This document shows positions 2,785-12,043 of a stretch of 13,340 nucleotides of DNA, in pieces. The notes beneath the pieces were generated by a model, which was given only the letters and a program-made list of their open reading frames with translations, ran no database searches and was not told the DNA's origin. Position 1 is the stretch's first letter. The number at the start of each line of letters is the position of its first letter. Position numbers and translations under genes: made by a program. The DNA is from a bacterium (GTDB taxonomy: Bacteria > CSSED10-310 > JAJRTK01): NCBI GenBank assembly GCA_024278345.1, contig JAJRTK010000110.1, positions 1 through 13,340 of the forward strand, in the 5' to 3' direction.

Positions 2785-3873
2785 GTGATCGAAGTGGAGG
2801 GAATCAGCAAACGGTATGGCGATCTCTACGCCATCCGGGACTTGAGTTTTTCCGTCGAAAAAGGAGATGTAGTCGGCTTCCTTGGCCCCAACGGAGCCGG
2901 AAAAACCACAACCATGCGAATCCTCACCTGTTTTTTCCCCCCTGCGGAGGGCAAGGCGCGGGTGGCTGGATACGATGTCTTCGATGATTCTCTGGAAGTG
3001 CGGCGCCGCATCGGCTACCTTCCCGAAAACCCGCCGCTCTACAGTGACATGACCGTCCGGGGCTACCTCAGGTTTGCCGCGAAGATCCGCGACGTTCCCT
3101 CTCGCCAGGTGACAAAGCGAGTCAGCGAGGTCATGGGTCGCTGTGGCTTGGAAAAGATGGACGAGCGCCTCATCGGTCATCTTTCCAAGGGATACCGGCA
3201 GCGTGTGGGACTGGCCCAGGCGCTGGTTCACGATCCGCCAGTACTCATTCTTGACGAACCCACAAGAGGCCTTGACCCGGCGCAAATCATCGAGGTTCGG
3301 GAGCTGATGCGCTCGCTTTCCCAGGAGCACACCATCATTCTCTCCACGCATATCCTTCCCGAGGTGAGTCAGGTATGCAAGAGCGTCGCGATTCTGAGTA
3401 ATGGCCGGATTGTGGCCAGCGGGACTCCGGAGAACTTGCAGGCTGGAGTCGAGGCGGTTTGCCATCTCGACTTGCAGATTTCGGGAAGCATGTCCGGAGC
3501 GGCGGAGCTGCTTTCCAAGGTTTCGGGTGTGTTGTCCGTGCGGACGGATCCGGCTCCAGAGGGAGCGGTTGCCGCGCTCACGTTAGATTATTTGCCGGAA
3601 GAAGATCCCCGTCAGGAAGTGGCAAGGGCACTGGTCAATGCTGGCTTTGGATTGCTGGAAATGAGCACCCGGGGAGTGAGCCTGGAGGATGTATATCTGC
3701 GGTTGCTCAAGTCCAGTGCTGGCCGCGAGTGGGCTGGTGGCGAACCTCCCATAGAGGAGTCGTTGCAAAGTGGGTCTACCGGAGAGGAGGCGGTTTCCGG
3801 GGGGGAAGAGTTGCCGGAAGCGGATGAGGCAGTGTCCGGCCCGGTGGCGCGGGAAGCGGAGGTGAAAGCATGA
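2785..3873 (+). CDS. ABC transporter ATP-binding protein, GldA-like
   Basis: A 362-residue ABC ATPase. Walker A is GPNGAGKTT (34-42), the signature loop is the variant LSKGYRQR (133-140), Walker B is VLILDE (152-158 region) with D-loop GLDP (162-165), and the switch histidine is STH (H189). LSKGY in place of LSGGQ and overall similarity to the NatA/GldA/CcmA class indicate an ATPase serving an ABC-2 permease. It would power the membrane complex made by the next three genes. The GTG start at 2785 has GAAGGAGAG (2771-2779) upstream. The last about 50 residues (from about 312) form a Glu/Gly/Ser-rich tail beyond the usual ATPase length, probably disordered. The stop overlaps the start of the permease gene by 4 nt (ATGA). 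The substrate is unknown. Confidence 0.9.
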   Translation: MIEVEGISKRYGDLYAIRDLSFSVEKGDVVGFLGPNGAGKTTTMRILTCFFPPAEGKARVAGYDVFDDSLEVRRRIGYLPENPPLYSDMTVRGYLRFAAKIRDVPSRQVTKRVSEVMGRCGLEKMDERLIGHLSKGYRQRVGLAQALVHDPPVLILDEPTRGLDPAQIIEVRELMRSLSQEHTIILSTHILPEVSQVCKSVAILSNGRIVASGTPENLQAGVEAVCHLDLQISGSMSGAAELLSKVSGVLSVRTDPAPEGAVAALTLDYLPEEDPRQEVARALVNAGFGLLEMSTRGVSLEDVYLRLLKSSAGREWAGGEPPIEESLQSGSTGEEAVSGGEELPEADEAVSGPVAREAEVKA

Positions 3874-4580
3874 AGAAGGTCTTTTATGTCTGGCAGCGCG
3901 AAGTCATAAGTCTGTTTACGTCGCCAGTTGGCTATGTCGCCGTGGCGGCGTTGACGCTCATCAATAGTTTCTTCTTTTGGCTCATCGCCAAGAGCTGGCC
4001 CTTCGCAAGCATGCAGCCATTGTTCGGGAACATGAGTATCACGCTTCTCTTTTTTGCCCCCGCTTTTACGATGCGGCAACTTGCGGAGGAAAAGCGGAGT
4101 GGGACGATGGAGCTCTTGTTCACGGCGCCCCTGACGGATGTTCAGGTCGTTCTGGGGAAGTATTTGGGGGCTTTTACTCTGTTCCTGTTTTCGGTTGTGG
4201 CCAGTTGGATTTATCCTGCCTTCCTCGCGATTTACGGATCGCCGGATTTCGGGCCCATTGCCGCGGGCTACCTTGGTTTGCTGCTCATTGGCGGATGCTA
4301 TTTGGTTGTGGGGCTGTTCGTTTCGTCGCTCACGAAGAACCAGATCGTGGCTTTCATCGGAAGCCTTGGGATTCTGCTCGTCATCTTCTTCCTTGAAGCT
4401 GCGATTCAGCTCCCTGACAACTGGATGATGTCGGTGTTGGCCTATCTGTCTTTGAGCTCGCACTTCATGCCGTTCACCAAGGGACTCATTGATCTGGGCG
4501 ATGTCGTTTTCTATGTGAGCTTCATCGCATTTTTCTTGTTCGCCACCGTGCGATCGGTGGAATCAAGGAAGTGGAGGTAA
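3870..4580 (+). CDS. ABC-2 type permease, GldF-like
   Basis: This 236-residue protein has about six hydrophobic segments (near 20-40, 54-68, 100-120, 133-153, 160-178, 212-228), the usual ABC-2 permease topology. Between segments 2 and 3 is the typical cytoplasmic motif RQLAEEKRSGTMELLFTAPL (69-88), seen in GldF and related permeases and taken to contact the ATPase. The start ATG overlaps the ATPase stop (ATGA), and the Shine-Dalgarno GGAGG-type sequence lies in the end of the ATPase gene. It would form the transmembrane channel or anchor with that ATPase. In Bacteroidota GldF works with GldA and GldG in gliding and secretion. Outside that phylum the role of such permeases is not established, so the name describes similarity only. 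Confidence 0.88.
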   Translation: MKKVFYVWQREVISLFTSPVGYVAVAALTLINSFFFWLIAKSWPFASMQPLFGNMSITLLFFAPAFTMRQLAEEKRSGTMELLFTAPLTDVQVVLGKYLGAFTLFLFSVVASWIYPAFLAIYGSPDFGPIAAGYLGLLLIGGCYLVVGLFVSSLTKNQIVAFIGSLGILLVIFFLEAAIQLPDNWMMSVLAYLSLSSHFMPFTKGLIDLGDVVFYVSFIAFFLFATVRSVESRKWR

Positions 4581-4587
4581 GGTCGTC

Positions 4588-6438
4588 ATGTTAAGCTGGA
4601 AAACTGCCAATGTCGGGCGACTGAGCGGGGCTGTGGGCCTTGCCATTGTTCTTGTGTCAGGAGTCATCGGGATTGCCCAAAGAGGCGGAATTACGACTCC
4701 TGTGTTTGTGGCCTTGCTCGTAGGACTGGGCATGGTGACGATTTCGTTTTTCTCCAGTGGCGCCATTTCCCGGAGGCAAGCCAAATACGGAACCAACATG
4801 GTCGTGAGTATCCTCTTGTTTGGCGCCATCCTGGGATTCGTCAACTATTTGGCTCACCGCTATCCCCAGCGCATCGACCTCACTCGCCAAGGGCTCTATT
4901 CCCTGTCGGACCAGACAAAGAAAATCCTGAGCAACCTTCAGGAAAAAGTCACAGCCATGGTCTTTGCCGTTCCGGGAAGAGGCGATGTGGAGCTGGTGCA
5001 GGACATCCTTGACACCTATGCGCGCCAGAGCGACAAGTTTGAGGTCAAAACCATCGATCCCGATGCAGACCCTGTGTTGCCCAAACTGCTAAAGATCCAG
5101 GAATACGGAACAGTGGCATTCGTCACAGGCGAAGAGCTGGAACAGGGCAAGCCAAAGCGGTCTCACCTTGTGACGCAAAGTGACTACATCGACAAAGACT
5201 ATACAGGGACACAGATGGGCCGGTCGCCTGAATACCGCTTCAAGGGTGAGCAGGCGTTTACCACGGCGATTCTTGGCGTCACCCAAGGCAGCCGGCAGAA
5301 GATCTACTTCTTGGCAGGTCACAAAGAGCTTCGACTCGACACGGATCTTCGGGCGTTCAAGGAGTCCTTGGAGGCGGAAAACTACGAAATCGAAGAACTT
5401 GTCCTTCCAAAAACTTACAAGGTTCCCGACGATGCCGCCCTCGTCATCATCGCCGGACCACAGCAGCCACTGCTGCCCGGGGAAGTCCAGGTCATGGTCA
5501 ACTACTTTAAGGGTGGTGGCAAGGGGCTCATTCTCCCCGGTCCACTGGGAGATCCGTCGCTCACTGAGCTGGTTTCGGAATTTGGCCTCACCATCGGTGA
5601 CGATGTCGTTGTCGATCCCTATAGCCGGAGTCTCTTTTCTCCCTATATCACGGTGGCAAGTGGGGCTGCCTACAAAGTTCATGAGATCACCGAAGGCTTC
5701 CAAGCGCAGAATGTGATGACGATTTTCAAGACGGCGCGGAGTCTGACGGTTGCCGACAAAACCGACCCTTGGACGGTCACTTCGCTGGTGGAGACCACCG
5801 AGGCGGCATGGGGTGAAAAGACCGATACCAGGCGTCCAAGGTGGGACAAGGATCAGGAAGTCGGCGGATCCATCCCCATGGCGGTCGTCGTGCAAGGCCC
5901 GGCCACAGATGTTCCGGCGGAGATCACGGTCAAGGCCCAAAGCGAGGAATTTGGCCTCGACGAAGTGGATCTGAGCGGAGTTCCCCAAGCCCAGGAGGTG
6001 CCTTCCAGCAGTGATTCCCAAGGGCCGGCCCACTCAGCGGAAACCAAGGCTTCCCCGGATGCGGCAACGGATGGTTCCAGTGAAGAAGATGGCGCGAACC
6101 AGGATGAAGATCCGGCAGCCGAGCCAGCCGAAACCAAGGAGGCGGATGAGCCCGAAACCATGCGCTGGGCCGACGAAACCCGCGTCGCTGTCATTTCTAC
6201 CGTGGGCATCGTTTCTGGCGAAGATTTCATGACCACGGGGAATCGCGACCTGATCCTCAACACCATCGGTTGGCTTGTGGAGAAAAAAGATCTCATTTCC
6301 ATCCGTTCCAAAGACACGCAGCCGCCCCCGCTTCGGCTCACCGAGGATCAGAAAAACGATGTTTTCCAGATCGCCGTGGTCCTTCTTCCAGCCTTGATCT
6401 TGGCCATCGGCATCGTCATTTGGCGGCGAAGGAGGTGA
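4588..6438 (+). CDS. GldG-like ABC transporter auxiliary membrane protein
   Basis: A 616-residue protein. Three N-terminal hydrophobic segments (about 13-30, 37-55, 71-88) are followed by the motif typical of GldG and ABC_transp_aux proteins, RIDLTRQGLYSLS then QTKKIL (about residues 95-114). A large periplasmic region follows. One C-terminal transmembrane segment (about 593-611) ends in a run of arginines. Residues about 471-523 are an acidic, Ser/Ala/Glu/Pro-rich linker, probably disordered, between the globular region and the final domain. GldG-type proteins accompany GldA/GldF ABC systems and may bind sugar or peptide ligands, but their biochemical role is unsettled. The ATG is 7 nt after the permease stop, with GGAGG (4573-4577) inside the end of the permease gene. 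The order ATPase, permease, GldG-like, DUF4340 is the main evidence that it belongs to this complex. Confidence 0.87.
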   Translation: MLSWKTANVGRLSGAVGLAIVLVSGVIGIAQRGGITTPVFVALLVGLGMVTISFFSSGAISRRQAKYGTNMVVSILLFGAILGFVNYLAHRYPQRIDLTRQGLYSLSDQTKKILSNLQEKVTAMVFAVPGRGDVELVQDILDTYARQSDKFEVKTIDPDADPVLPKLLKIQEYGTVAFVTGEELEQGKPKRSHLVTQSDYIDKDYTGTQMGRSPEYRFKGEQAFTTAILGVTQGSRQKIYFLAGHKELRLDTDLRAFKESLEAENYEIEELVLPKTYKVPDDAALVIIAGPQQPLLPGEVQVMVNYFKGGGKGLILPGPLGDPSLTELVSEFGLTIGDDVVVDPYSRSLFSPYITVASGAAYKVHEITEGFQAQNVMTIFKTARSLTVADKTDPWTVTSLVETTEAAWGEKTDTRRPRWDKDQEVGGSIPMAVVVQGPATDVPAEITVKAQSEEFGLDEVDLSGVPQAQEVPSSSDSQGPAHSAETKASPDAATDGSSEEDGANQDEDPAAEPAETKEADEPETMRWADETRVAVISTVGIVSGEDFMTTGNRDLILNTIGWLVEKKDLISIRSKDTQPPPLRLTEDQKNDVFQIAVVLLPALILAIGIVIWRRRR

Positions 6439-6444
6439 GGCGAG

Positions 6445-7920
6445 ATGAGCTTCCGAACGACATTCTCGATGCTTGCCGTCGCCCTCGCACTGGGCGGTTA
6501 TATCTATTTTTTTGAGAGCGAGGAAGTGCCGGATCCCCTTCAACCGGAGCTGATGAGCGTTTTTCAGAAGGGCGTTCAGGCCAAGGATATCCAGAAAATG
6601 CGCGTCGAGGCGGGGAAGGAAATCGTGGAGCTTGAAAGGTCCGGTGACGAGAGCTGGAAGCTGACCCAGCCCGTGTCGGCCCGGGCCGACAAATATCAGG
6701 CAGACGACGTGGCGAGTCTCTTGGCCCGCCTCGAATCCTCCCGGCGCCTGGAGAATCCAGACGATTGGTCGATGTTTGGCCTGGGAGAGGGCGCCCTCAA
6801 GCTGGAGTTCTACCTTGCGGGAAAGAAGGTTCCACGAGGAATTCTTCTGGGTGACAAGACGATTGACGGCCAGTCGATTTATGCACGAAGAACCGATGAC
6901 AGGAAGCTTCTTATTCTTCCTAAGGCCCTCAAAATCCGCCTGGAAAAAAAGGCTAACGACTGGAGGGACAAAAGCCTCACCGGCCTCAAATTTGACGACG
7001 TTGTCGCCCTCAAGATCGAGCGGGGCTCGGAAATCCTGGAAATAGAGAAGCAGGGGGATCGATGGATGATCGTCGCCCCTGAAAACGCGCCGGCTGACAA
7101 GACGGAAGTCGAGAGCCTGGTGCGCCAGCTCACGGGCCTCCGAGTGGACACTTTTGTCGAGGATGGGATCTTAGACAGTGCGAAACTTGCCGGCTATGGG
7201 CTTGACCCTCCGGCGATCCGTGTTGCTCTTCGGGTTGGGAAAACTGCTGCCACGACGGTGGAGCTCGCGGAAATCAAGACCGAGCCCGGTGCGGCCGGCG
7301 AATCTGAAGAAGCTGACTTGGAGGAGGTCAAACCTCCCGATGCAGCCAAGGAGGTCTATGCCCGTTTGGCCGGTGAGAACTCAGTCTACCTTGTTCCTGG
7401 TTCCGTGCTGGAGCCGCTTCGGCGGGATAGACTGAAATTTCGATTTCTTGGCCCGTTTTATTCCAGGCAATGGCAAATCGAAAAACTCGACTTCAAGGGG
7501 GAAGGGCTGGCGTTTTCCATGGCCAAGGAAAAAGGCGTTTGGCGTCTTGTGAAGCCAGAGGAGAAGGAACTCTCCGGTAGCGACGCCACGGCCTTTTTGA
7601 GCAAGCTCACCAACATGCGTTTCGCGGCCATGGTGGCGGGAGATTCTTTGGCTAAGACCGTTGGAAAGATCGTAATCGTCACCGACAAAAAGGACGATGC
7701 CGGAAAAGAAATCCAGGAAACTCTTCTTTTGGGGCTGAAGATCGACGGCGGGCGCACGGTCCAGAGAGAGGGTGAGAGGTTTGTCTACAAGTTGGAAGAT
7801 TCTTCTTACCAACCGGTGGTGGAGGCCGCTAAGAAGCTTCTCAAGAAAGACGAGGAAAAAGTGGAAGGCTTAGAGCCGGAAGGCCGCAGCACGTCCCCCA
7901 AGGCACCCAAGAGCCCATGA
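6445..7920 (+). CDS. DUF4340-family membrane-anchored protein with three repeats
   Basis: A 491-residue protein with an N-terminal membrane anchor (about 6-23) and a long periplasmic part. I see three diverged copies of one unit, starting near residues 49, 186 and 345. Each has a short hydrophobic strand, then W-x-(hydrophobic)-x-x-P (SWKLTQP, RWMIVAP, VWRLVKP), then a D-containing turn leading to L-x-x-x-L (LLARL, LVRQL, FLSKL). Copies 1 and 2 continue into GLG/GLD and a segment containing YARR or YARL. DUF4340 proteins commonly follow GldG-like genes, but their function is unknown. The gene starts 6 nt after the GldG-like stop, with GGAGG at 6431-6435. The C-terminal about 25 residues are Lys/Glu/Pro-rich. 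I infer a periplasmic scaffold or substrate-handling role in the ABC complex. Confidence 0.82.
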   Translation: MSFRTTFSMLAVALALGGYIYFFESEEVPDPLQPELMSVFQKGVQAKDIQKMRVEAGKEIVELERSGDESWKLTQPVSARADKYQADDVASLLARLESSRRLENPDDWSMFGLGEGALKLEFYLAGKKVPRGILLGDKTIDGQSIYARRTDDRKLLILPKALKIRLEKKANDWRDKSLTGLKFDDVVALKIERGSEILEIEKQGDRWMIVAPENAPADKTEVESLVRQLTGLRVDTFVEDGILDSAKLAGYGLDPPAIRVALRVGKTAATTVELAEIKTEPGAAGESEEADLEEVKPPDAAKEVYARLAGENSVYLVPGSVLEPLRRDRLKFRFLGPFYSRQWQIEKLDFKGEGLAFSMAKEKGVWRLVKPEEKELSGSDATAFLSKLTNMRFAAMVAGDSLAKTVGKIVIVTDKKDDAGKEIQETLLLGLKIDGGRTVQREGERFVYKLEDSSYQPVVEAAKKLLKKDEEKVEGLEPEGRSTSPKAPKSP

Positions 7921-7991: not shown

Positions 7992-9521
7992 ATGGCCATG
8001 GAACTCAATGAGCAAGAGCATGCGGTTTTGTCGCTTCTCTCTCGTCACGCGGGCAGCCCCACAGTGGGCGATGTCGCCCAAAAAACTGGCCTCGATCAGG
8101 CGCAGGTCGCCGCGGTGGCCCACACTGCCAAACAGCGGGGCTGGATCGACGTAACCGAAAAAAAACGGAGTGAATTGTCTCTCGCCCCTGGCGCTGGCGA
8201 GCTGATTGCCCAGGGGCTTCCGGAGCGGAGATTCCTGGATCGGATGCCCCCGGGCCAGCCCTTGTCCATGCGAGATGCGGCAGGGTTGGCCAGGGAACTG
8301 GGAACCGCTCTCAACGAGGTCTTGCGTTACGGCGGGCAGAGAGGATGGTTCCGGAAGGCGGGGGGGGAACTTCACCTCACCGACGAAGGAAAGGCCGCAG
8401 CGGGGAAACCTGCTCCCGACGAGAGAGCCCTCCAGATTGTCGCGGAAAGAGGGCCCATCTTTCTGGACGAACTCGAGGGTTTGGGCGTTTCCGAGGGGGC
8501 CGCCGCCAAACTCCTCGCCAAGCGAGGCAATGTGGCTAAAACCAAGGTGAGGACTTTCCGAACCCTGGCGCTGACTCCCGTGGGCAGGGAGATCCTTTCG
8601 GGGGAATTGATTGTCAAGCGCCTTCGATCACAGCTCACCAGCGAAGACCTCACTACCGGTGGTTGGCGCCGGATCGAGCTCAAGCCCTACGACGTAACTT
8701 TGGCCGCGGAGACGGCGGTTCCGGTCAAATCGCACCCGTTTCAACGCATCCTGGAGCAAACCCGTCGCGCTTTCTTGGAGATGGGTTTCACGGAAATGGT
8801 CTCGCCCATGGTGGAAACAGCGTTTTGGGATTTCGATGCCCTTTTCCAACCGCAGGATCATCCGGCTCGGGACATGCAAGATACATTTTATCTTGCCAGA
8901 CCCGCTACTGGTCGTCTTCCGGCCTCGGAGCTCGTAGAACGGGTGAAGCGAACCCACGAGGACGGAGGCGATACGGGATCTCTTGGCTGGGGTTACCGTT
9001 GGAGTGAGGATCGGGCGCGGCGCATGGTTCTTCGGACACACACCACGGCGACGACGGTCCGGGCCCTTGCCGCTGACCCTAACCCACCCAGGAAGGTCTT
9101 TTGTGTGGGGCGGGTTTTCCGGAACGAAACGATTACTTACAAGCATTTGCCGGAGTTCACCCAGGTCGATGGCATCATCATCGACAAGAAGGCCAATTTT
9201 GCCATGCTTCTTGCCGTACTCAAGGAGTTCTACCGCAAGATGGGTTTCCAGAGGGTGAAGTTTAAACCGGCTTTCTTCCCTTACACGGAGCCCAGCGCGG
9301 AAGTCTTCGTTTGGATGGATTCGAAGAAGACCTGGATCGAGCTTGGAGGTTCCGGGGTCTTCCGGCCCGAGGTCACGAAGCCTCTGGGTTGCGATGTCCC
9401 CGTTCTTGCGTGGGGCCTAGGCCTCGAGCGCCTGGCCATGCAGCGCTACGGGCTTGGGGATATCCGAACGCTCTATTGGACGGATCTCGATTGGCTAAGG
9501 GAGGTACCGCTATGCCAGTAG
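7992..9521 (+). CDS. pheS: Phenylalanyl-tRNA synthetase alpha subunit, archaeal/eukaryal type
   Basis: A 509-residue catalytic subunit of the PheRS tetramer, charging tRNA-Phe in the cytoplasm. The N-terminal about 215 residues look like the winged-helix DNA-binding-fold domains seen in archaeal and eukaryal alpha subunits. Bacterial PheS is only about 330-350 residues and has a coiled coil there instead. The class II core follows: motif 1 near 248-275 (HPFQRILEQTRRAFLEMGF), motif 2 at 376-394 (FRNETITYKHLPEFTQVDG), the FFPYTEPSAEV phenylalanine-site segment (428-438) and motif 3 GLGLERL (475-481). The ATG at 7992 is chosen because AAGGAG (7979-7984) lies 7 nt before it; a TTG 21 nt upstream would overlap that site. 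The last 10 nt overlap pheT. Its neighbours are not the rplT or ihfA genes usual beside bacterial pheST. Confidence 0.93.
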   Translation: MAMELNEQEHAVLSLLSRHAGSPTVGDVAQKTGLDQAQVAAVAHTAKQRGWIDVTEKKRSELSLAPGAGELIAQGLPERRFLDRMPPGQPLSMRDAAGLARELGTALNEVLRYGGQRGWFRKAGGELHLTDEGKAAAGKPAPDERALQIVAERGPIFLDELEGLGVSEGAAAKLLAKRGNVAKTKVRTFRTLALTPVGREILSGELIVKRLRSQLTSEDLTTGGWRRIELKPYDVTLAAETAVPVKSHPFQRILEQTRRAFLEMGFTEMVSPMVETAFWDFDALFQPQDHPARDMQDTFYLARPATGRLPASELVERVKRTHEDGGDTGSLGWGYRWSEDRARRMVLRTHTTATTVRALAADPNPPRKVFCVGRVFRNETITYKHLPEFTQVDGIIIDKKANFAMLLAVLKEFYRKMGFQRVKFKPAFFPYTEPSAEVFVWMDSKKTWIELGGSGVFRPEVTKPLGCDVPVLAWGLGLERLAMQRYGLGDIRTLYWTDLDWLREVPLCQ

Positions 9522-11317
9522 TTGCCATCGGAGTCGAAAGGCTCAACCGATTTCTTGGAGTCTCCCGTCCCATGGCCGAGCTCGTGGAGGCACTGGAAAA
9601 CCTCGGGTGCGATGTTGAGGACACTGCCGAGGTGGTTCATTACCGCTGTGCAGTTTGTGGTATGACCACGGAAAAGCTTGCCCACGAAGCCCCACCCAAG
9701 CGGTGCGACCAGTGTTGCCACCAGTGTGATGCCGCCCTGTCCGAGGGTTCTCGGCAAGACGTGATCCGCCTCGACCTCTTGGCGGATCGCCCTGACCTCT
9801 TTGACACCGGTGGCATTTGCCGTGCCCTCAAGGGGGTGTTGGGTATCGAGGAAGGGCTCCCCCATTATGAAGCCCATCCGGGAACCATCGTGGTCCATAT
9901 CGATTCCGCTCTCGAACACGCGGAGAGCTACCGGCCTCACATCGTCTGCGCCGAGGTCGAGATGCCGCCTCTTGATGAGGAGATGCTCCGGGAGCTCATG
10001 CGTCTGCAGGAGAGCCTTCATTGGGGCGTCGGCAGGGATCGTAAGCTCTGTTCCATCGGGGTTTACGACCTTGCCGCCATTGAGCCACCTATAAAATACA
10101 CGACGATCCGGCCCGATGGTGGGACATTCGTGCCTCTGGCCTATGGAACCAAAGCTCTTACAGCTCGCGCTATTCTTGAGGAACATCCCAAGGGAGCCGG
10201 TTACGCCCACCTGCTATCGGGGTTGTCGGCGTACCCGCTTCTGGTGGATTCCAGGGGCCAGGTCTTGTCCATGCCTCCCATTATCAATAGCGAGGAGACG
10301 CGCTTGAAGAAGGGATCCACAAGGCTCTTCGTCGATGTGACCGGGATTGTGGAGGATGCTCCCAAAAATGCACTCCATACTCTTGTCTGCTCCATGGTGG
10401 AGATGGGTGGCCTTGTCAAGACGGTTGAAGTGGTCCAGTCCGATGGACGGAGCTCCAGTTGGCCCGATCTGAAGCCGCGGCGGCAGCCCATCGATCTCCG
10501 GGATGCTCGGCGCTGGCTTGGCCTCGATTCCAGTAATGGGGAGCTTCGACGTCTTTTTAGGAAGATGCGTCTCAGCGTCGAAGGGGAAGGGGACAAAGTG
10601 GAGGTCAGCTACCCGGCCTTCAGGACGGATATCCGTCACCCGGTGGATCTCTATGCCGATTTAGCGATTGGAGTCGGTTACGCCAAGATGCCGTCCGCGC
10701 AGCTTCCGACCCCCACCCAAAGCAGCCAGCGTCCGGAAGAACTGCTTGCCAACCGTGTTCGCCAGATTCTTCTTGGCATGGGGTGTTGGGAGATCATGAG
10801 CCTGATCCAAACCACCAACGACCACCACTTTGACGCATTGAGGATTGAGCCCAAGGGGGAATTCATACTGATTTCGAACCCCAAGAATTCAGAGGTCAAC
10901 ATTGTTCGCTGCCATCTGATGACTGGGCTTTTGGAGACCTTCCAGAAGAATCGCCGCAAGTCGGCTCCACAGAGTTTTTTCGAGGTTGGAAACGTGGTTC
11001 TCTTGGAGCCTGGGGCCGAGACCGGCACGCGGGAAGAGCGGCGCGTTGCATTCGCTACCATGGGCCCTGAAGCAGGGTTTGCCACTGTCCGGTCGCAGAC
11101 GGATGGGCTCCTTCATGAACTGGGCGTCTCTGGCCAATATAGAGCGGAGGAGCACCCTTCCTTCGTTTCGGGTCGTTGCGCCAAAATGGAAGTGCCTGGC
11201 TCTGCCGGTGTGGAAATTCGCGGGCGGCTTGGAGAGATTCATCCCGCGGTCCTGGAGCGGTTTTCCATCCCCTATCCGGTGGCTCTCGCGGAAATCACTC
11301 TCTGTCGCGTGCTTTGA
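9512..11317 (+). CDS. pheT: Phenylalanyl-tRNA synthetase beta subunit, archaeal/eukaryal type, with cysteine-rich insertion
   Basis: This 601-residue subunit matches the short archaeal/eukaryal beta form (about 550-600 residues) rather than the about 800-residue bacterial form. It lacks the N-terminal EMAP-like tRNA-binding domain and the C-terminal FDX-ACB domain. In order there is an N-terminal segment, ADRPDLFDTGGICRALKG (91-108), a B3/B4 region (about 125-300) that in the family edits mischarged Tyr-tRNA-Phe, a B5 domain (about 322-392, ending DIRHPVDLYADLAIGVGY) and a catalytic-like B6/B7 region (about 405-600). Residues 46-72 carry six cysteines in CxxC pairs, not part of the standard family plan as I know it. 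ATG 9512 has TAAGGGAGG (9496-9504) inside pheS, so translation is probably coupled. Confidence 0.92.
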   Translation: MPVVAIGVERLNRFLGVSRPMAELVEALENLGCDVEDTAEVVHYRCAVCGMTTEKLAHEAPPKRCDQCCHQCDAALSEGSRQDVIRLDLLADRPDLFDTGGICRALKGVLGIEEGLPHYEAHPGTIVVHIDSALEHAESYRPHIVCAEVEMPPLDEEMLRELMRLQESLHWGVGRDRKLCSIGVYDLAAIEPPIKYTTIRPDGGTFVPLAYGTKALTARAILEEHPKGAGYAHLLSGLSAYPLLVDSRGQVLSMPPIINSEETRLKKGSTRLFVDVTGIVEDAPKNALHTLVCSMVEMGGLVKTVEVVQSDGRSSSWPDLKPRRQPIDLRDARRWLGLDSSNGELRRLFRKMRLSVEGEGDKVEVSYPAFRTDIRHPVDLYADLAIGVGYAKMPSAQLPTPTQSSQRPEELLANRVRQILLGMGCWEIMSLIQTTNDHHFDALRIEPKGEFILISNPKNSEVNIVRCHLMTGLLETFQKNRRKSAPQSFFEVGNVVLLEPGAETGTREERRVAFATMGPEAGFATVRSQTDGLLHELGVSGQYRAEEHPSFVSGRCAKMEVPGSAGVEIRGRLGEIHPAVLERFSIPYPVALAEITLCRVL

Positions 11318-11365: not shown

Positions 11366-12043
11366 ATGATCGTTCGTCTCAGATTCTTTGCTTTGTATCG
11401 GGAGCTTGTAGGAAAAGAGGAAAGCCGGATTGAGCTTCCTGAAGGAGCCCTGGTCTCGGATTTGCTTCGGGAAGTCCGGCGCCATGAGCCACGGCTCCGG
11501 GATCTTCCAGAGCACGTATTGGCGGCGGTGAATTTGGATTATGTGCCGCCGGATCACCCGTTGCGCCATGGAGACGAGGTTGCCCTCATCCCGCCTGTTG
11601 CCGGTGGCTCTGGATCGTCACCCATTTGTGTCACCGATGGACCCATCGATCCCCAGAAACTCCTCCAGGTCGTCGCCACGCCGGCTGCCGGAGCCCTAGT
11701 CCTCTTTGTGGGAACCGTCAGAGACGTTTCTCAAGGCCGAGCGGTGGTCTACCTCCAGTATGAGGCCTATGTGGAGATGGCGGAAAAGAAACTCCTGGAG
11801 ATCGCCGCGGGGGCCAGTCGGAAGTGGGATCTTTGCGGCGTCGCCGTGGAACATCGTGTGGGCAAGCTTGATCCAGGAGAGGTCGCTGTGGCTGTTGCAG
11901 TATCAGCGGCGCACCGAAAGGAAGCCTTCGAGGCCGGTCGGATGATTATCGATGAGTTGAAGAAAGAGGTTCCCATCTGGAAAAAAGAGGGCTATGCTGA
12001 TGGCGAGGTTTGGGTCGATCCGGGCAGTTGTTGTCATGGATAG
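11366..12043 (+). CDS. Fused molybdopterin synthase, MoaD-MoaE
   Basis: A 225-residue fusion of both molybdopterin synthase subunits. Residues 1-81 are a MoaD ubiquitin-like domain ending PPVAGG (76-81), where free MoaD would end in the Gly-Gly that carries the thiocarboxylate. Residues 88-225 are MoaE: FVGTVRD (114-120), EHRVG (162-166), SAAHR and EAFEAGR (180-192), and LKKEVPIWKKE (198-208). By alignment from memory, K199 and K206 correspond to the catalytic lysines K119 and K126 of E. coli MoaE. The enzyme turns cPMP into molybdopterin. Because the Gly-Gly is internal, the domains probably must be cleaved after G81, as reported for mycobacterial MoaX. ATG 11366 has AAGGAG 7 nt upstream. 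It lies 48 nt after pheT; no other Mo-cofactor gene is in the window. Confidence 0.92.
   Translation: MIVRLRFFALYRELVGKEESRIELPEGALVSDLLREVRRHEPRLRDLPEHVLAAVNLDYVPPDHPLRHGDEVALIPPVAGGSGSSPICVTDGPIDPQKLLQVVATPAAGALVLFVGTVRDVSQGRAVVYLQYEAYVEMAEKKLLEIAAGASRKWDLCGVAVEHRVGKLDPGEVAVAVAVSAAHRKEAFEAGRMIIDELKKEVPIWKKEGYADGEVWVDPGSCCHG

Follow-up and report, generated by a model that had tools for sequence, protein, structure and literature searches.

A predicted zinc ribbon in the B1 hairpin of archaeal-type phenylalanine-tRNA ligase beta subunits from a bacterial lineage

Three forms of phenylalanine-tRNA ligase (PheRS), a textbook enzyme, are recognized. In the open-licence literature that we searched, we found no mention of a zinc site in its beta subunit (PheT). 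The bacterial contig JAJRTK010000110.1, analyzed here over 13,340 nucleotides (referred to as the window), encodes a PheT with six cysteines packed into a short N-terminal segment. This raises the questions of what this cluster is, whether other bacteria share it, and what it may contribute to the enzyme.

The PheRS genes of the window and their cysteine cluster

We base the following analysis on these features of the window:

7992 to 9521, + strand: pheS, PheRS alpha subunit (NF003210, 535 bits, cut-off 350)
9512 to 11317, + strand: pheT, archaeal-type PheRS beta subunit, 601 amino acids (TIGR00471 pheT_arch)
9641 to 9760, + strand: insertion in the B1-domain hairpin, PheT residues 44 to 83, made up of the predicted zinc ribbon and the inner ends of a two-stranded stalk (2cxi superposition and AlphaFold)
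9647 to 9658, + strand: first knuckle, C46-A-V-C49 (C46 in 60/64 aligned rows, C49 in 58/64)
9704 to 9715, + strand: second knuckle, C65-D-Q-C68 (C65 in 60/64 rows, C68 in 58/64)
9716 to 9727, + strand: C69-H-Q-C72, extra cysteines of the window sequence only (the C69 column is Gly in 53/64 rows)
9788 to 9799, + strand: RPDL motif, residues 93 to 96, after the returning stalk strand (R93, P94, and D95 invariant)

The window PheT scored 434.4 bits against the archaeal-type model TIGR00471, above the curated cut-off of 282.65, versus only 99 bits against the bacterial-type PheT family. Its Pfam matches were limited to B1, B3_4, B5, and CLM, while the B2 (PF01588) and FDX-ACB (B8) domains, both present in the Thermus-like bacterial-type PheT L015, were not found in it by Pfam. 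Judged by its sequence, the protein is an archaeal-type PheRS beta subunit, which we call a variant with ∼40 extra residues in the B1 hairpin because this hairpin is not short as in Pyrococcus horikoshii; a short hairpin without insert is the usual feature of TIGR00471 members, although it lies outside the curated definition of that family. No second PheT was found in the 6.06-Mb draft genome (completeness, 87.9%).

With the pheS start set at the first ATG of its frame, pheS and pheT overlap by 10 nucleotides (window positions 9512 to 9521). An overlap of 10 or 13 nucleotides recurs in 36 of the 54 related loci with pheS upstream, which suggests that translational coupling of the two genes has been kept across phyla. 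Read by eye, the region upstream of the pair (2785 to 7920; an ABC ATPase, a permease, and two long open reading frames) resembles a gliding-type (Gld) ABC transporter cluster, and the 225-amino-acid open reading frame downstream (11366 to 12043) appears to join a MoaD-like part to a MoaE-like part.

The N terminus of PheT contains EVVHYRCAVCGMTTEKLAHEAPPKRCDQCCHQCDAAL, and its cysteines lie at positions 33, 46, 49, 65, 68, 69, and 72, plus later positions. Codons 46 to 72 correspond exactly to window positions 9647 to 9727, 15 residues separate C49 from C65, and RPDL starts 20 residues past the cysteine segment, all in agreement with the original prediction of six cysteines with a 15-residue spacer ahead of this motif. 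Among 20,000 composition-preserving shuffles of the window PheT, 41 contained CxxC-x(10-20)-CxxC anywhere and 27 contained at least six cysteines within 27 residues. Chance clustering was rejected at these frequencies (∼0.1 to 0.2% of shuffles), with conservation (see below) as the stronger and deciding evidence. A haem site was likewise rejected, as the CxxCH motif is absent and the only trace was a weak HmcA match.

The cluster lies in an insertion of the B1 hairpin

To place the cluster in the known structure of the subunit, we superposed the N-terminal fragment of P. horikoshii PheRS beta (PDB 2cxi) on our model, which gave a Z score of 44.1 and an rmsd of 1.6 for 345/347 residues (model residues 2 to 390 versus chain residues 2 to 348). 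The arrangement of B1, B3/4, and B5 is the same in both proteins, but 389 model residues span the 347 chain residues, and the P. horikoshii protein has a tight turn, DDVWEENGKVYFKL, without a ribbon where the window PheT carries its ∼40-residue insert. The TIGR00471 profile match begins only at PheT residue 83, at profile position 42. That such a site is missing from standard beta subunits, as originally proposed, thus holds for 2cxi and TIGR00471, the one structure and the family profile on which the archaeal comparison rests; the genome survey described below covers bacteria. Short hairpins were also found in archaeal-type PheTs of bacteria (L003, L005, L006, and L118 to L127).

Four of the six cysteines are conserved across bacterial phyla

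The search for related loci, run from a six-row alignment, retrieved 66 loci from named genomes. Since both retrieval patterns (LGCDV.. and L[PA][VD]RPD[LI]FD) lie outside the four cysteines C46, C49, C65, and C68, the search did not select for this tetrad. In the resulting alignment of 64 PheT rows, window included, the complete tetrad CxxC-x15-CxxC was present in 58 rows, half of it in two, and none of it in four. The four cysteines are the best-conserved columns within residues 44 to 83 (91 to 94%), and the typical form of the motif is CxxCG-x(14)-CxxCG with a proline three residues before the second pair. A further 30 loci, four of them unreadable by the simple pattern that we used, gave the tetrad in 24 of 26 readable cases, although here the ribbon itself served as the query and some loci repeat earlier genomes. 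The suspicion that the cysteines form an insertion common to a group of bacteria was therefore borne out in the alignment.

The two remaining cysteines behave differently. C69 replaces the conserved Gly of the second knuckle, with C72 following it, and in the closest named relative, a Candidatus Schekmanbacteria genome (L053; PheT 57% identical), the tetrad is present whereas C69 and C72 are absent. These two residues are private to the window protein and probably dispensable. Of the zinc site first read from six cysteines, the part formed by C46/C49/C65/C68 stands and the part formed by C69/C72 does not, and a two-metal cluster of six cysteines was rejected for the same lack of conservation.

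According to NCBI ranks, the retrieved loci belong to Planctomycetota, Acidobacteriota, Myxococcota, Eiseniibacteriota, Fischeribacteriota, Calditrichota, Caldifarciminota, and Gemmatimonadota, with one Spirochaetota bin and the unplaced KSB1 and Aminicenantes; as nearly all of these genomes are metagenome bins, isolated odd placements may be binning errors.

Besides the cysteines, P62, and the Gly that follows the second knuckle, the insert has few columns conserved at 75% or more; an acidic residue occupies position 54 in every one of the 64 rows. Two groups depart from the tetrad. In UBP7, the insert has about the same length and keeps the acidic residue 54 and proline 62 but has none of the four cysteines; in a Myxococcota pair, C49 and C68 are gone and two of the four cysteines are left. 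Given what the UBP7 insert retains without cysteines, it seems to be the shape of the insert, rather than the metal, that matters.

The insert is predicted to fold as a zinc ribbon

AlphaFold2, run with the 64-row alignment, predicted the window PheT with a mean pLDDT of 93 (86 to 92 over the insert), and the insert folded alone from 60 rows reached 91 to 95 over window PheT residues 41 to 80. Two long strands (residues 33 to 45 and 77 to 89) form the stalk in this model, and a short strand lies between the knuckles. The best structural neighbor was the MCM N-terminal zinc domain (Z of ∼5, rmsd of 1.8 over 42 residues), a modest score for such a short domain. Foldseek with the ribbon alone gave eS27 and aRF1 (best E value, 0.21). 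These nearest structures are Cys4 ribbons, but no single match was significant. Profile searches with 60 members gave repeated weak matches to FmdB-type (37 members), rubredoxin-like (24 members), and RNA polymerase P zinc ribbons, as well as to Zn_ribbon_8 (19 members), and other ribbon families likewise matched only weakly among members. For the FmdB-type family TIGR02605, the window insert scored 12.4 bits versus a cut-off of 31.3, placing it outside that family. The ribbons of the MCM N-terminal domain, eS27, FmdB, and RNA polymerase subunit P have two CxxC knuckles, like the insert, and the fold that is predicted for it, but they belong to proteins unrelated to PheT; the likeness is one of fold and motif.

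Conservation, profile matches, and predicted fold thus agree with a zinc ribbon in its four-cysteine rather than its six-cysteine form; for these four of the six residues, the cysteines are neither unconserved among relatives nor dispersed in the predicted structure. The tetrad very probably binds one Zn2+, which would be structural and tie both knuckles together. The rubredoxin-like matches of some members could also point to an iron site or redox switch, or to a zinc sensor of PheRS activity. An essential sensor is hard to reconcile with UBP7, where all four cysteines are replaced, and with the Myxococcota pair, where two of four are missing, and the UBP7 insert argues against metal or redox sensing in general. 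We therefore consider a sensing role, one of the functions first suggested for the cluster, very improbable.

The predicted ribbon belongs to a distinct lineage of bacterial PheRS

To gain an idea about the history of the insert, we built a tree of 81 PheT rows from which the insert columns were left out. All 68 long-hairpin rows fell on one side of a single branch (SH-aLRT, 99; FastTree, 0.94), with archaea and eukaryotes represented on the other side by only one row each, both from printed alignments. The tree requires three changes of state, most simply explained by one gain and two losses, the first in the four UBP7 rows, which lack the entire tetrad, and the second in the Myxococcota pair (C49/C68 gone). 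PheS follows the same split, with 46 to 61% identity in ribbon-group genomes but 33 to 34% where a genome of the same phylum has the short type. These sequence comparisons place the predicted ribbon in a bacterial lineage of its own among archaeal-type PheRS beta subunits. In the UBP7 loci (L093, L097, L098, and L100), pheS is not located upstream of pheT; their PheS is encoded elsewhere and is of the ribbon lineage.

The short-type genomes G001 and G002 share the phylum of the window, showing that ribbon and short kinds are mixed within it. This one phylum holds two kinds of archaeal-type PheRS, short (L003 and L006) and ribbon bearing (window and L053), and at least one of them was thus probably acquired by transfer. 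Archaeal-type PheRS has been well described in Spirochaeta, Borrelia, and Treponema, where, as here, both subunits of a bacterial enzyme are archaeal type (Andam and Gogarten 2011, PMC3191353). The spirochaete beta subunits have 514 to 573 amino acids (PMC3191353), in contrast to ∼595 to 630 for most ribbon members. The short-type bacterial PheTs compared here lie on the opposite side of the tree, and none of them is tied by name to Spirochaeta, Borrelia, or Treponema.

The pattern of losses also bears on the idea that the insert is only a local fold stabilizer, a by-product kept folded by zinc and having no partner. Such a role would accord with the variable sequence between the knuckles, where little is conserved at 75% besides the cysteines, Gly, and P62, and with PheTs that were retained after the cysteines had been lost twice. 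It sits poorly with the maintenance of the insert across many phyla and of the acidic residue 54 even where the cysteines are gone, and we regard it as distinctly unlikely.

The same hairpin accepts different inserts, and the ribbon may be a docking arm

In bacterial-type PheT, the B1 hairpin carries B2, an EMAP II-like OB-fold, which PF01588 matched at residues 54 to 146 of L015, between LGFETDRIERV and VVLDLEVTPNRPD. Read from sequence and the published order of bacterial PheRS beta domains (PMC3275996), the B2 site is the site of the ribbon, although B2 is an OB-fold of ∼95 residues and the insert is a predicted Cys4 ribbon; we claim no homology between them. The bacterial-type PheT L018 lacks B2 by Pfam and has a short turn at this hairpin. 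Bacterial-type PheTs of ∼690 amino acids whose N terminus is without B2 also include L008, L021, and L026, with Pfam confirmation for L018. Bacterial PheTs with and without B2, together with the ribbon carriers, indicate that the B1 hairpin accommodates nothing, an OB-fold, or a predicted ribbon.

The main rival to a docking ribbon is a B2-like role in tRNA binding, for which the shared position speaks: the predicted ribbon would replace the B2 OB-fold and help to keep tRNA-Phe bound, or to bind it again, while it is charged or edited. A zinc-ribbon insertion also exists in GlyRS, where it has been linked to aminoacylation (PMC10810186). However, the net charge of the insert averages −2.8 (range, −7 to +1), there is no conserved basic patch apart from R at positions 43, 45, and 55, which only some rows have, and PheTs without B2, such as L018, indicate that the hairpin site tolerates emptiness. 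Unspecific RNA binding is unlikely because the insert is negatively charged, which weakens this form of the tRNA-binding role originally suggested. We consider the B2-like role unlikely overall, and its narrower version, in which the ribbon stands in for B2 in holding tRNA for editing, so that unrelated domains at one site would serve the same end, somewhat more so.

The negative charge, together with the acidic residue 54 in all rows, fits contact with a protein, or a role in local structure, better than unspecific RNA contact. Our preferred reading, with moderate confidence, is that C46/C49 and C65/C68 form a Cys4 zinc ribbon where the lengthened B1 hairpin has its tip, and that this ribbon is most likely a docking arm. 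The ribbon would form a rigid arm that touches a protein surface, most likely that of the N-terminal domains of the alpha subunit or of some other region of the (alpha-beta)2 tetramer. This full proposal of a rigid arm with such a contact is tentative, possible rather than probable, and the partner itself is a guess.

The ribbon-bearing PheRS represents a recognizable further architecture of this enzyme that occurs in many bacterial phyla. Its predicted metal site has no counterpart at that place in the PDB relatives aligned. Among bacteria with an archaeal-type PheRS, the ribbon is a clear marker of a lineage that is separate from the short type, and the comparison reveals the B1 hairpin as an acceptor of different inserts. 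If the predicted ribbon does stand in for B2, a second bacterial lineage, of archaeal-type PheRS, would have placed a zinc ribbon in the hairpin of B2 to do the job of B2.
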